From assembly GCA_944359725.1 (NCBI GenBank), contig CALVSY010000008.1:1-57166 (forward strand): a stretch of 57,166 nt of DNA, given 5' to 3'. This DNA comes from an uncultured Bacilli bacterium (lineage in GTDB: Bacteria > Bacillota_I > Bacilli_A > RF39 > UBA660). A program made the translations under genes and the position numbers. How positions within the stretch are numbered: the stretch's first letter is position 1; the number at the start of each line of letters is the position of its first letter. Below the pieces are notes generated by a model. It ran no database searches. It was not told the DNA's origin and saw nothing but the letters and a program-made list of their open reading frames with translations. Shown piece by piece: positions 15,886 to 54,360 of this stretch.

Positions 15886-15986
15886 TTCACACCTTCTTAC
15901 ATACTTATTTTAATCATTTATATATTATCATAATCTTATTTTAAATTCAATTTCTTTTATTAGTATGTGTAAATATACTTTTTATA

Positions 15987-16015
15987 TTGATATTATCTTT
16001 ATTTTTGGATATAAT
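15987..16015 (+). promoter_or_regulatory. Strong sigma-A promoter of the antisense RNA
   Basis: TTGATA (15987-15992), 17-nt spacer, TATAAT (16010-16015). It drives a short plus-strand RNA towards the small-peptide gene on the other strand. Confidence 0.75.
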
Positions 16016-16021
16016 AAAAGT

Positions 16022-16107
16022 GTAAGGAAGCAGCTTACTAGTTGTTTTCCAGTTAATGTTTATTAATGAAAAGCAGAGCTAGTATTTACTATGCTCTGCT
16101 TTTCTTA
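16022..16107 (+). ncRNA. Candidate antitoxin RNA, locus A
   Basis: Predicted ~85-nt transcript from the promoter at 15987-16015 to the hairpin at 16069-16103. It has no open frame. It contains TTACTAGTTGTTTTCCA (16035-16051), which recurs as an inverted copy in the leader of the convergent peptide gene (16227-16245). It runs into the 3' end of that gene, whose stop is at 16110-16112, so the two transcripts overlap at the shared terminator, as in type I toxin-antitoxin loci. Parts resemble the RNA at 405-526. Confidence 0.55.
16069..16103. terminator. Bidirectional hairpin, locus A
   Basis: Eleven-bp arms AAAAGCAGAGC/GCTCTGCTTTT with an inner stem TAGT/ACTA. U-rich on both sides, so it can end the plus-strand RNA and the convergent peptide mRNA. 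Confidence 0.8.
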
Positions 16108-16109
16108 CT

Positions 16110-16193
16110 TTATATAACAATCAATATGACTACTATTATAAGTAATATGATGACTAATTTTGGAGTAAATTTAATTTCAAATCTAAACCTCAT
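16110..16193 (-). CDS. 27-aa hydrophobic peptide, type I toxin-like
   Basis: The peptide begins MRFRFEIKFTPK and continues as an uninterrupted run of 15 aliphatic residues (Leu, Ile, Val) to the C-terminus. It is a basic head plus one membrane helix, the form of type I toxins. A GGTGAT site lies seven bases upstream of the ATG. The 120-base leader contains an inverted copy of a segment of the plus-strand RNA, so 5'-3' pairing within the mRNA is possible. It lies between yqeH and LRR protein 2. The family is not one I recognise, and a small constitutive membrane peptide cannot be excluded. Confidence 0.6.
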   Translation of the reverse strand: MRFRFEIKFTPKLVIILLIIVVILIVI

Positions 16194-16317
16194 AAGCATC
16201 ACCATCCCTTCTTATTCAAAAAGAAATGGAAAACAAAGTTAGTAAATCACTACTTCCTCATACTTATAATTCTCCATAACTTTTTAAAATCCCCTAAAAA
16301 AATGAAAAAAATATAAA

Positions 16318-23900: not shown

Positions 23901-24092
23901 TTTAGCAACCATGTGATGAACACCAGGATTACCATTTGCCGTTGCAGGTCCATCATAGAAAACAAAGTTTTCGCAAGTCTTTCTATTATCTATCGTCTTT
24001 TTTAATATGTCTTCTTCTTTCCATTTTTTTAGTATTTCTTGTTCAGTTTCATACTCACTTTTCTTTGATAACTCTTTAAATATCTTACTCAT
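20991..24092 (-). CDS. ileS: Isoleucine--tRNA ligase, IleS2-like
   Basis: Charges tRNA-Ile. Class I signatures: PATANGNPGVHHMV (HIGH region) and KNGQKMHKSRGN (KMSKS region, with His in place of Ser). The editing domain contains TTTPWTLIANVALCVNP and GTGVVHIAPAFGEDD, and a zinc-binding CWRC/CxxC insertion is present (CLKCGKEM). At 1033 residues with no C-terminal Cys cluster it fits the longer, eukaryote-like IleS2 clade rather than the usual ~920-residue bacterial form. IleS2 enzymes are often less sensitive to mupirocin; this is known of the clade, not shown here. Regulated by the T-box upstream. Confidence 0.97.
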   Translation of the reverse strand: MSKIFKELSKKSEYETEQEILKKWKEEDILKKTIDNRKTCENFVFYDGPATANGNPGVHHMVAKFLKDAFCKYQTMKGKRVLRKIGWDTHGLPVEVQVEKELGFNGKKDIEKYGVEQFNKKCREAVWKNEEAFTRLTDEMGQFIDTKNSYITYKNDYIETEWWILKKFFDEGLFYEGVKITPYCPRCGTSLASHEVAQGYKEVSVDTVIVPMKKKDEDAYFLVWTTTPWTLIANVALCVNPDETYVKVESKGYKFILAKALMNKVLGDDVKIVEEYKGKDLEYQEYEQLLPFLTVNKKAFFVTCDTYVTMEDGTGVVHIAPAFGEDDANVGKKYNLPYLNPVGEDGCYTDGPWKGMRVFDADLEVIKYLKENDKLFKKQKIVHNYPHCWRCSSPLLYYSKPSFYLEVTKIKDKIIEENKKVNWYPSYVGEKRFGNWLEELKDWAISRQRYWGTPLPLWRCSCGHEEMIGSRKELQEKAVEKIDETIELHRPYVDDIHIKCLKCGKEMTRVKDVIDCWFDSGSMPFAQYHYPFENKDLFKEQFPADFIAEGIDQTRGWFYSLLVISVFVTGKSPYKNVLVNDLLLDKNGQKMHKSRGNAIEPFSLIEKNGADPIRWYLPYVSPVWTPIKFDEDGLKEVYSKFFNTFKNTYSFFALYANTDNVDPRKFSVSYDKLEEIDKWLLSKYNKLLDYVTKAYDEYDLTRVVRSVTDFVSEDLSNWYIRRTRKRFWAHDLDDSKKTVYKTTYDVLVGLCKIIAPIASFTAEEIYTNLTNEESVHLSDFPKANLSLVDDRIENKMDLVRSIISLGRNAREEVKIKVRQPISEVLIDGKDKDLIGNLDELIKEELNVKNVTYVSDLSKYMNFEVKPNFKVVGKIFGPKIKLYQEELKKLTDEDVKFIQNGEAVTINVDGELFDVTEEMVDIRVSAKDGYDAIKDGNNFIILNTNLTEDLINEGIARELISKVQNLRKQKDFDVTDRIKLYYNGPKEFEKVIESFGDMIKKETLSKELINKDNLTEEFDLNGIKVKLDATKVNA

Positions 24093-24099
24093 TTTTATT

Positions 24100-24355
24100 C
24101 CTCCTTTAAATAAAAAAAACTCACCCTTATATAAAGGATGAGATTATTCCCACGGTACCACCTTAATTCATATCTTTTGATATGCTCTTTACTTGTTTTA
24201 ACGCTAGTCAAGCGGTAATATCCTACTTATCTTCAGATAAACACATCAAGAAGTGATCCAAAACGCATGTTCCTTAATCATTTTCGCACCAAATAAATGA
24301 CTCTCTTTTAATTACTTATACGCCTTCGTCTTCCTCATTTGCTTTATACATTATA
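24100..24355 (-). promoter_or_regulatory. T-box riboswitch, specifier AUC (Ile)
   Basis: On the minus strand the leader has an AGAGAG bulge (24301-24306), a specifier AUC followed by A (24255-24257), the T-box AGGTGGTACCGTGGG (24149-24163) and a terminator stem CTCATCC...GGGTGAG with a U-run (24113-24143). Uncharged tRNA-Ile would stabilise the antiterminator and permit ileS transcription. The specifier agrees with the downstream gene. Confidence 0.93.
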
Positions 24356-24386
24356 TTCTATCAAACAAAAAATTATTTTGCAAGCA

Positions 24387-28790: not shown

Positions 28791-28860
28791 AAGCATCACC
28801 TTTTATTATTATGGGGATATTTGAAAATGGTATGCATATAATAAAATGGAGTTGAAAAAA

Positions 28861-29115
28861 ATGTATGATGTTTTAATAAAAGAATATTTAAAAAGATTAT
28901 CATTAAATGATATAGATAAATTTGCTTTAAAAAATGGTGTTACTTTAAAACCCGGCGAAAACAAAATAATATATGATTTTATAATGCAAAATTGGCAAGA
29001 AGTATATAAAGGAGATAGTAAAAAAGCTTTTTTGAAACTAAAAGAAAAAACATCTAAAGAAACATATGATGCCATAATTAAAATGTTTAATATGTTTAAA
29101 GATAAAATTAAATAA
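28861..29115 (+). CDS. DUF2624-like small protein
   Basis: An 84-residue soluble, lysine-rich helical protein: MYDVLIKEYLKRLSLNDIDK, then FALKNGVTLKPGENKIIYDF. This resembles the DUF2624 (YqfT) family of short Bacilli proteins in which an early helix is followed by L-x-x-x-E-x-x-x-I. The start is the ATG at 28861 because ATGGAG, nine bases upstream, supplies the ribosome binding site. It is divergent from the PBP gene. Function unknown. Confidence 0.65.
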   Translation: MYDVLIKEYLKRLSLNDIDKFALKNGVTLKPGENKIIYDFIMQNWQEVYKGDSKKAFLKLKEKTSKETYDAIIKMFNMFKDKIK

Positions 29116-29148
29116 TATTTTACATCTTAAAAAAACATTTAAATATGT

Positions 29149-29263
29149 TATTATGTATGTAGATGAAGGAAACTTTATAAAATAAAAAAGGAGCATTCAT
29201 ATTATTTGAATGCTAACCTAAATTTGGGCTGACACTAGCTTAAAGCTGGTGTCATTTTTTTAT
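29149..29263 (+). ncRNA. Candidate antitoxin RNA, locus B
   Basis: A -10 box TATTAT (29149-29154) with a weak -35 (CTTAAA) points to a plus-strand transcript from about 29161 to the terminator at 29231-29261. It contains a hairpin AGCATTCA/TGAATGCT (29192-29216 region) and the segment AATTTGGGC (29221-29229). The terminator stem overlaps the stop codon of the convergent 25-aa peptide gene. AATTTGGGC recurs, inverted, at 29371-29379 in that gene's leader. Confidence 0.5.
29231..29261 (+). terminator. Terminator of the locus B RNA
   Basis: Stem GACACTAGC/GCTGGTGTC followed by seven T on the plus strand. Confidence 0.85.
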
Positions 29264-29329
29264 TACTATTAGTGATAAAATGATGGTAATGTAACGAAAT
29301 ACTTTGATTACAAAGATTCGTTTTTTCAT
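29252..29329 (-). CDS. 25-aa hydrophobic peptide, type I toxin-like
   Basis: The peptide begins MKKRIFVIKVFRY and continues ITIILSLIVIKK: basic ends around one hydrophobic helix. It has a near-perfect Shine-Dalgarno (AGGAGGTGAT, 29336-29345), very strong for so small a gene. The leader (~60 nt) has ACCTTCT able to pair with AGGAGGT, which would hide the site, and AATTTGGGC able to pair with the mRNA's own 3' region. Its promoter is strong. The layout is that of a type I toxin; I do not recognise the peptide family. Confidence 0.62.
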   Translation of the reverse strand: MKKRIFVIKVFRYITIILSLIVIKK

Positions 29330-29396
29330 TCGTCTATCACCTCCTACTCCTTTTGGTTTAGAAGGTTCTCGCCCAAATTATAAATGTTCCAAGCGC

Positions 29397-29425
29397 ATAA
29401 TATCACATATTAAAATATAATGCAA
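29397..29425 (-). promoter_or_regulatory. Sigma-A promoter of the locus B peptide mRNA
   Basis: TTGCAT (29420-29425), 17-nt spacer, TATTAT (29397-29402) on the minus strand; start of transcription near 29390. Confidence 0.7.
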
Positions 29426-29562
29426 AACAGTTTATTGCACTATGTTTTATGTAAAAAGTTATTTTTTATATAGCAATTAATCTTTTTTTGTAATTATTAT
29501 TTTTTAATATTTAGTTTTTTTAATTAAAATATGTTATTATAAAAAAAGAAAGAAGGCGTTTT

Positions 29563-30684
29563 ATGATTAAAGTTGGTGTAATAGCAGAATATAATCCTTT
29601 TCATAACGGGCACTTATATCATTTAAATAAAGTAAAAGAAATGTTTCCTGATGCATATTTAATCCTTGTTTTAATTGGTAACTTTACCCAAAGAGCGGAC
29701 GCTAGCATAATAAACAAATGGGATAAAACTAAAATAGCACTTAAATATGGATATAACCTAGTTGTAGAACTTCCCTTTAACATAGCAACATCATCCGCAA
29801 GTATTTATGCTAAAGGAGCAATTGACATTTTAAATAAATTAGACTGCAATTACTTGGTTTTTGGCTCAGAAACTAACGATGTTTCACTATTTAAAAAATT
29901 GGTTAACATAACAAATGATAATAAGAATTATGAAGAAAAAATAAGAACGTACTTAAAAGAAGGATATAACTATCCTAAAAGCTGCTCACTTGCCTTAAGG
30001 GACATATCAAAAATAACGATCGACAAGCCAAACGACGTTTTAGCACTTGAATACGTAAGAAGCATAATTAATACTAATAGCAAGATAACTCCTATTAGCA
30101 TAAAAAGAACAAATGATTATAATGATAGTAAAATAAAAAGTGATATTACAAGTGCAACGTCAATTAGAAAAAACATAAATAATAAAAGTTTAATTAAAAA
30201 AACGCTTCCTTCTTACTCTTTTGATTTAATAAAAAACATTAATGAAAAAGATTATTTTACGTTATTAAAATATAAAATAATTATAAGTGATGATTTAATT
30301 GACATATTAGACGTTGATGAAGGTATTTTAAACAAACTAAAAAAGGTTGTTTTAGAGTCTCTTGACTTAAACGATTTAATAATGCGTGTAAAATCAAAAA
30401 GATATTCATATAACAGAATTAAAAGAATGCTTCTTCACATCCTTACTAATACCAAAAAAGATTATAGTGCAAGCATAAATTACATCCGGGTTTTAGGTTT
30501 AGATAATAAAGGAAAAGAAGTATTAAAAATCGTTAAAAAGAAAATAGACATACCAGTTATTACGAAGTATAAAAAGGAATATGATTCTTTATTTAAAGAT
30601 GATATAAAAGCTAGTAAATTATATTCCCTACTTTCTAATTATGACTATAAAGAAGAATATCAAAGTAGTATTAAAAAAGGCTAA
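29563..30684 (+). CDS. tmcAL: tRNA(Met) cytidine acetate ligase TmcAL
   Basis: Makes N4-acetylcytidine at the wobble position of elongator tRNA-Met from acetate and ATP (formerly YlbM/DUF795). The HIGH-like nucleotidyltransferase motif is AEYNPFHNGH at the N-terminus; GNFTQRADASIINKWDK and LPFNIATSSASIYAKGA follow, and the C-terminal helical region has RVLGLDNKGKEVL. 373 residues, typical. Convergent with spoVAE, sharing a terminator. Confidence 0.94.
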   Translation: MIKVGVIAEYNPFHNGHLYHLNKVKEMFPDAYLILVLIGNFTQRADASIINKWDKTKIALKYGYNLVVELPFNIATSSASIYAKGAIDILNKLDCNYLVFGSETNDVSLFKKLVNITNDNKNYEEKIRTYLKEGYNYPKSCSLALRDISKITIDKPNDVLALEYVRSIINTNSKITPISIKRTNDYNDSKIKSDITSATSIRKNINNKSLIKKTLPSYSFDLIKNINEKDYFTLLKYKIIISDDLIDILDVDEGILNKLKKVVLESLDLNDLIMRVKSKRYSYNRIKRMLLHILTNTKKDYSASINYIRVLGLDNKGKEVLKIVKKKIDIPVITKYKKEYDSLFKDDIKASKLYSLLSNYDYKEEYQSSIKKG

Positions 30685-54122: not shown

Positions 54123-54251
54123 TTAGCATATAAATGAACCAACTATTATAGCAAGTAAAATATATAATACTATTATTAATAAATAGCCATTACCGCTTCT
54201 TCTTGGGGTGCATCCACAAGAATTAGTAGTTGTCTGTGTGCAGCATGCCAT
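54123..54251 (-). CDS. YjcZ-like peptide with Cys-rich head
   Basis: A 42-residue peptide. The N-terminal part MACCTQTTTNSCGCTPRR has four Cys; the C-terminal part is a hydrophobic helix GYLLIIVLYILLAIIVGSFI, which matches the YjcZ/sporulation-peptide pattern (G-x-x-LIVVL-x-ILLxII-x-GA). AGGAGG lies ten bases upstream of the ATG. Second of two tandem peptide genes. The extra Cys-rich head is unlike usual YjcZ peptides and could cross-link. Confidence 0.75.
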   Translation of the reverse strand: MACCTQTTTNSCGCTPRRSGNGYLLIIVLYILLAIIVGSFIC

Positions 54252-54276
54252 AATCTATAAACCTCCTTTTTTTATA

Positions 54277-54360
54277 TTAAACGTAAGCACCTATTATGAT
54301 TACTAATAAAATAAATAGTACTAATATAATTCCAGCGCCAGATGCGTAATTGTTTCCCAT
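54277..54360 (-). CDS. YjcZ-family sporulation peptide
   Basis: A 27-residue peptide starting MGNNYASGAGIILVLFILL and ending IGAYV. It matches the YjcZ/YczN-type small sporulation peptides of Bacilli (SGYGG-x-GFALIVVLFILLIIVGA-x). AGGAGG precedes the ATG. A sigma-K-like promoter lies 30 bases upstream. Followed by the Cys-rich paralogue. Confidence 0.85.
   Translation of the reverse strand: MGNNYASGAGIILVLFILLVIIIGAYV

Follow-up and report, generated by a model that had tools for sequence, protein, structure and literature searches.

Does the interval of about 450 bp between a DUF2624-like gene and tmcAL carry a toxin gene with its own antisense RNA, and if it does, how widespread is such an arrangement among related genomes? 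In order to answer this, we read the interval within the window, i.e. the whole analysed stretch of 57,166 nucleotides, and compared it with homologous loci in related genomes. The sequence contains two convergent units: a peptide mRNA on the minus strand overlaps an RNA of ~100 nt on the plus strand (cassette span 29139-29430), and both units come with a separate terminator and an extended -10 promoter. We regard this cassette as very probably a chromosomal type I toxin-antitoxin-like locus, belonging to a family absent from all libraries searched. Its anatomy, its conservation, the covariation in the 5'-3' helix and the antisense hairpins and the selection on the peptide are directly supported by the data presented below.

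Anatomy of the locus

The elements of the interval and its neighbours are as follows.

28846-29115, plus: DUF2624-like gene, left neighbour of the cassette
29146-29154, plus: extended -10 of the convergent RNA, TGTTATTAT; TGnTAnnAT nearly invariant in 43 homologues
29161-29262, plus: predicted convergent (antitoxin-like) RNA, ~100 nt, three hairpins
29163-29178, plus: 5'-terminal hairpin of the convergent RNA, ATGAAG-GAAA-CTTTAT, outside the overlap
29180-29214, minus: intrinsic terminator of the peptide mRNA, AGCATTCAAATAATATGAATGCT plus U-run (stem 29214-29192; terminator scan, alignment A4)
29180-29390, minus: predicted peptide (toxin-like) mRNA, ~210 nt (alignment A4, 39 sequences)
29221-29229, overlap of both RNAs: GCCCAAATT on minus, AATTTGGGC on plus; distal half of a 9-bp pair
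29230-29262, plus: terminator of the convergent RNA (stem 29230-29254), with compensatory pairs
29252-29329, minus: peptide ORF, 25 codons, MKKRIFVIKVFRYITIILSLIVIKK
29336-29345, minus: Shine-Dalgarno sequence AGGAGGTGAT, exact match
29360-29366, minus: anti-Shine-Dalgarno ACCTTCT, opposing AGGAGGT in the leader hairpin
29364-29390, minus: 5' leader element GGAACATTTATAATTTGGGCGAGAACC, pairing with the 3' end (fold and family covariation)
29425-29420 and 29402-29397, minus: peptide mRNA promoter, TTGCAT, 17 nt, TATTAT, kept in homologues
29563-30684, plus: tmcAL (PF05636, E 1e-113), right neighbour, divergent from the peptide mRNA

The promoter of the peptide mRNA has a TG one base ahead of its -10 element, and the mRNA is predicted to run from a conserved 5' GGAAC near 29390 to the U-run. 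The leader element contains the motif AATTTGGGC (29371-29379, minus) to which a preliminary description of this DNA had drawn attention. That description had also proposed the 25-codon hydrophobic peptide with its Shine-Dalgarno sequence and promoter, the leader pairing of ACCTTCT with AGGAGGT, and a convergent RNA carrying AATTTGGGC. All of these were located as proposed, with the Shine-Dalgarno hairpin in the minimum free energy (MFE) structure and the peptide stop codon (29252-29254) inside the terminator stem of the convergent RNA. Our analysis adds that the peptide has been shortened relative to a family of 29-30 residues, that the mRNA has a terminator of its own and that its ends form a helix of ~25-27 nt. 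Within 800 bp, the only terminator-like sites are the two of the cassette, against 0.1 expected.

Predicted folding of the two RNAs

The minus-strand RNA has an MFE of -57 kcal/mol compared to -35.1 +/- 4.1 in dinucleotide shuffles (z -5.4), and in the window copy this structure contains the Shine-Dalgarno hairpin and the 9-bp closure together; the plus-strand RNA reaches z -6.0 against such shuffles. Over 45 homologues, folding predicts a mean unpaired probability of 0.16 for the Shine-Dalgarno sequence. Swapping the partners of the anti-Shine-Dalgarno/Shine-Dalgarno pair gave a weaker signal (16/2000 permutations) than the corresponding swap of the mRNA ends described below. A release of the Shine-Dalgarno sequence by 3' trimming found no support in equilibrium folding (unpaired 0.14 vs 0.16), in which it is still paired in the full-length, 3'-trimmed and leaderless forms of the mRNA alike.

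The preliminary description had placed particular weight on the 9-bp pair AATTTGGGC/GCCCAAATT (repeat I10). The pair is present and part of the MFE structure, but alone it lies within chance, with other perfect 9-bp A/T-only pairs found in 351 bp, and it belongs to a longer helix. The significance of the locus derives from the whole fold and from the homologues rather than from this pair alone.

A family of short peptides under purifying selection

The usual peptide of the family comprises 29-30 residues (MKKRIFVIKVLRYIxIILxLLxxxIxVIKK). With 25 residues, the window peptide is likewise cationic and hydrophobic and is without five core residues (LLAII) of the 30-residue homologues. It is probably a tiny membrane peptide acting as a toxin. 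A codon comparison of 59 loci gave a median dN/dS of 0.32, with 98.8% of pairs below 1, and the peptide ORF is therefore a selected protein-coding gene; a small hydrophobic peptide gene under selection is among the features by which type I toxin-antitoxin systems are recognised.

Searches of Pfam, NCBIfam and PADLOC with three peptides returned no match. This includes Fst-type toxins, for which no Pfam or NCBIfam Fst match appeared at E up to 1. Matches to TxpA, BsrG, BsrE and YonT were likewise absent, insofar as these toxins have models in the two libraries.

Covarying closure of the mRNA ends

In the homologous mRNAs, the 3' end is the pairing partner of a 5'-terminal stretch of ~27 nt, so that the helix spans ~25-27 nt and not 9 bp; across the family (alignment A4), the arms of the terminator also pair with the 5' leader. 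For 52 loci, the duplex formed with the own partner averages -34.9 kcal/mol vs -26.7 kcal/mol with swapped partners (0/2000 permutations), and RNAalifold recovers the helix unaided from 39 aligned mRNAs. Over the inner 11 pairs, to which the A4 pair counts refer (the MAFFT alignment offsets the leaders of different subfamilies by one base), 94.9% of cells are paired, and covariation amounts to 0.224 vs 0.124 in shuffled and at most 0.056 in slid alignments (0/500), shared ancestry being only partly removed from these counts as from the swaps. The outer part, GGAAC/GTTCC, was covered by the duplex swaps. Among nine cassettes with six peptide types, the matrix of own and swapped partners is strongly diagonal (-30.9 vs -14.6 kcal/mol, 0/20000). 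Compensatory changes in the two arms include GAGUGUCUACC/GGUAGACAUUC to GAGUGCUUGCC/GGCAAGUACUC; another arm change is GGAACAUU/AAUGUUCC to GGAUAUAU/AUGUAUCC. Closure of the full-length mRNA is predicted in 44 of 45 cases, the sole exception being the window copy.

The 9-bp pair as the key conserved element was rejected, since the loci L011, L012 and L019 keep the peptide without GCCCAAATT. Taken literally, these losses are the very observation that the preliminary description had named as speaking against its reading; the longer helix nevertheless persists, reaching -39.2 kcal/mol in L012. Dozens of homologues support the type I-like layout proposed there, with a masked ribosome site, 5'-3' closure and a convergent antisense RNA: they conserve two promoters, the Shine-Dalgarno hairpin, the peptide and two terminators, and they show covariation and purifying selection.

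The predicted convergent antisense RNA

Of 47 homologues, 44 have a hairpin at the predicted 5' end of the antisense RNA, its stem varying in sequence, and two further hairpins carry compensatory pairs. Together with the promoter, the terminator and the position, this conserved structure would suit a cis-encoded RNA complementary to the toxin mRNA, as in type I systems. A covariance model of this RNA built from one peptide type (R1) matches the window at 29142-29261 with 98.6 bits, the window sequence being part of its training set. At the locus, Rfam returned only chance matches, both at the gathering score and at E up to 5, and none of its antitoxin RNA families reached the gathering score.

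Among the loci fetched, the antisense RNA lies opposite nearly all intact peptides. Several R1 loci in two multi-copy genomes (at least L158, L166, L169, L170 and L179) retain the RNA and have lost the peptide, L161 and L167 at contig ends not being properly readable, and L020 and L023 have lost both. This is the asymmetry expected of an antitoxin. At L048 (identical to L072), an intact peptide is accompanied by an antisense-RNA gene cut at the contig edge by an IS-like sequence, which starts at ~1591, right after the stop codon of the cassette, and by eye reads as an IS3-type transposase end. Accordingly, the presence of the antisense RNA is not an absolute requirement at this site.

Two weaker R1 matches were recorded as well. 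In the window's own genome, a third match (G000:C12:27989-28108, L104) scores 38.7 bits; no intact peptide was found beside it, and it is likely an orphan antisense RNA. Within the window, positions 411-544 on the minus strand match with 24.3 bits (E 0.1), possibly by chance.

Distribution and proposed exchange of peptide types

Of 18 genomes from the genus, 9 contain copies related at the DNA level; among them is the window's own, which carries a second, intact copy with 86% identity on contig C3. R1 cassettes were found in 12 of these 18 genomes, and two genomes of 1.1 Mb from other genera harbour 14 and 12 R1 copies. Within the family, 85 of 291 genomes, representing 66 of 150 genera, encode the peptide. 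Its profile matched 147 of 288 genomes of an order sample, all from the same family among the matches listed, and a class-wide sample yielded only one genome from another family. The named relatives are metagenome-assembled genomes of the class Bacilli, and Candidatus Aphodocola excrementigallinarum is the nearest of them. Neither tblastn against phages and plasmids nor a scan of viral contigs detected a relative, and thus these searches give no link to prophages or plasmids. A literature search of open-licence PubMed Central papers found no description of the family.

Type I modules are hard to find, as their peptides are tiny and diverge fast. Here, it is the RNA chassis and not the peptide that constitutes the searchable family: the model built from one type also finds cassettes with other peptides. 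Peptides on the R1 chassis comprise the types MKKRIF..., MKTKTFIVKVLRLIAIILLLSTLLVLAIKK, MKKKDLLISFLILIIILLIVSVMILCIKK, MNKKDFLILALIIIILLLIVLLFVILK and MTKREFSQFIIIILLFILVFIILFK. A plain relationship links MKKRIF... and MKTKTFIVKVLRLIAIILLLSTLLVLAIKK, whereas MKKKDLLISFLILIIILLIVSVMILCIKK and MNKKDFLILALIIIILLLIVLLFVILK may be mutually related, and in total five or six peptide types appear to share one RNA chassis. Cassettes also occur in tandem arrays, including arrays with other peptide types. On balance, we favour the view that the dual-RNA design works as a chassis on which at least five or six types of short hydrophobic toxins can be exchanged, that it has spread to over a dozen copies in a genome of 1.1 Mb, and that it represents a major unrecognised type I superfamily of an uncultured gut lineage. 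If functional, at least a dozen latent toxin-antitoxin pairs would reside in gut genomes of only ~1.1 Mb. This would raise the questions of cross-talk between near-identical antitoxins, of toxin exchange on one regulatory frame and of the role of such dense arrays in bacteria with so few genes.

History of the site and alternative explanations

The cassette occupies the DUF2624-tmcAL junction in G000, G001 and G007, and a wreck is left in G016, where the toxin is frameshifted and the 5' half of the antisense RNA is gone; most other relatives having this junction show no cassette there. The position divergent from tmcAL, kept in four genomes, would fit a regulatory or leader peptide for tmcAL, or else a small membrane protein of structural function under the control of an antisense regulator, and small hydrophobic peptides are sometimes non-toxic. 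We consider such a non-toxic role unlikely, given the junctions without a cassette in most relatives and the cassettes at many other places, also in tandem with other peptide types. Even less probable, in our view, is a MITE-like repeat, a small transposable element in which peptide and promoters would be incidental. Inverted repeats of ~27 nt, a length of 250-300 bp and many dispersed intergenic copies do resemble such elements. However, the ORF is under purifying selection, the arms change together between types, and the homology runs beyond the repeats to both promoters, which are conserved outside them together with the antisense 5' hairpin; by eye, no target duplication was seen at the empty tmcAL sites.

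A different question is whether the window copy itself still works. The in-frame deletion of five residues from the hydrophobic core and a closure of -21.8 kcal/mol, the weakest of 52 loci, raise the suspicion of decay, and the copy may be weakened or decaying. In its strong form, this reading makes it the decaying remnant of a working family, with a shortened core that would be inactive (~11 vs ~16 hydrophobic residues) and a convergent RNA that would persist alone or silence other copies. We hold this for a serious possibility that falls slightly short of an even chance. It would also account for the change of the leader motif from GTGTCAGCC to GCGAGAACC and is in line with frameshifts in further copies, whether at this site (L020/L148 of G016) or at other positions (L014 and L023), and with the intact copy on contig C3. 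On the other hand, the deletion keeps the frame, as do short deletions in L013 and L015; promoter, Shine-Dalgarno sequence, start, stop and both terminators are intact, and the minus-strand RNA retains both locks in its fold (z -5.4).

Proposed mechanism and relation to known systems

For the type I toxin-antitoxin-like reading that we prefer, we infer transcription, toxicity, neutralisation, the involvement of RNase III and the activation step. The minus-strand mRNA would encode a single-span cationic membrane peptide and would be locked twice, with the Shine-Dalgarno sequence in the local leader hairpin and the first ~27 nt paired to the 3' end. The closed mRNA, presumably stable and untranslated, might constitute an inert pool beyond the reach of the antisense RNA. 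The convergent RNA of ~100 nt, transcribed from its own extended -10 promoter, would be complementary to the mRNA from the stop codon through the terminator. Its second hairpin repeats the mRNA leader sequence, and the antisense RNA would therefore rival the leader in pairing with the 3' arms. In a duplex with the antisense RNA, the toxin mRNA would become prone to decay by RNase III, as with SR4, SR5 and SR6. Once the antisense RNA falls, the mRNA could be processed or refold, and the peptide would be made and act on the membrane.

In Bacillus subtilis, bsrG/SR4, bsrE/SR5, yonT/SR6 and txpA/RatA likewise pair a small hydrophobic peptide with an antisense RNA that is convergent to its gene and overlaps it at the 3' end; yonT and SR6 also have extended -10 promoters and a 3' overlap of ~65 nt, and the 3'-overlapping antitoxins cause RNase III decay of the toxin mRNA (PMC5848175). 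The cassette differs in that its leader repeats the 3' end in inverted orientation, and the sections of this source used here describe no 5'-3' closure for the B. subtilis modules (PMC5848175). Such a long-distance interaction, which makes the full-length mRNA untranslatable, is known from aapA/IsoA of Helicobacter pylori and from hok/Sok, which also share local anti-Shine-Dalgarno hairpins, a peptide of ~30 residues and several chromosomal copies with the cassette, whose closure is based on prediction and covariation (PMC6733600). The closure characteristic of aapA is predicted for the cassette, which would work like aapA without being homologous to it. IsoA lies opposite the small ORF, whereas the antisense RNA of the cassette covers the stop codon and the 3' UTR and not the ORF body (PMC6733600); moreover, the cassette belongs to a different phylum than aapA/IsoA and hok/Sok and carries several peptide types on one RNA design.

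The Fst/Ldr system par of pAD1 resembles the cassette in its convergent promoters, the 3' overlap at the terminator, a 5' stem-loop masking the Shine-Dalgarno sequence and a 5' end held in a helix (PMC7472228). In contrast, par uses one shared bidirectional terminator and direct repeats (DRa/DRb), whereas the cassette has two separate terminators and inverted repeats (PMC7472228). No direct repeat family was found in 29100-29450 of the window; a short GTGTCA repeat is present in the homologues but not in the window copy itself. CD2517.1-RCd8 of Clostridioides difficile shares convergent overlapping genes and a hydrophobic peptide with a lysine-containing C-terminus, but the type I peptides of this species measure 34-59 residues and many reside in prophages, unlike the cassette with its lack of phage, plasmid or viral-contig matches (PMC6563280). 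By analogy, the design would unite antitoxins that overlap the 3' end, as in B. subtilis, with an mRNA closed between its 5' and 3' ends, as in aapA and hok, and its features suggest a new family that is a variant of type I systems. It would also serve as a Gram-positive example of an mRNA closed between its two ends, one in which natural covariation is rich.

Locus A and further observations in the window

The preliminary description had compared the cassette with a locus A of the same layout and an unrelated peptide. This is probably the locus at 15975-16270, with a minus-strand peptide MLMRFRFEIKFTPKLVIILLIIVVILIVI ending in FTPKLVIILLIIVVILIVI. It has the same inverted pairing of leader and 3' end (fold z -8.75; duplex of -26.2 kcal/mol). 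The comparison holds for the layout and for the peptide, but the unrelatedness is limited to the latter, as the RNA design is the same; R1 does not match locus A. The locus is repeated within its own genome, and three copies (L195-L197) share extra homology into a neighbouring gene which, by eye, looks like one for a TasA/camelysin-type secreted protein.

Elsewhere in the window, the minus strand at 24092-24380, upstream of an ORF of 1033 residues, contains GGTGGTACCGTGGG followed by a hairpin and a T-run. This arrangement looks like a T-box leader, and Rfam reported no T-box there at the gathering score. At 54123-54360, also on the minus strand, two adjacent small hydrophobic ORFs of 27 and 42 residues have good ribosome sites; they are not R1 cassettes, and we take them to resemble YjcZ-type small sporulation membrane proteins.
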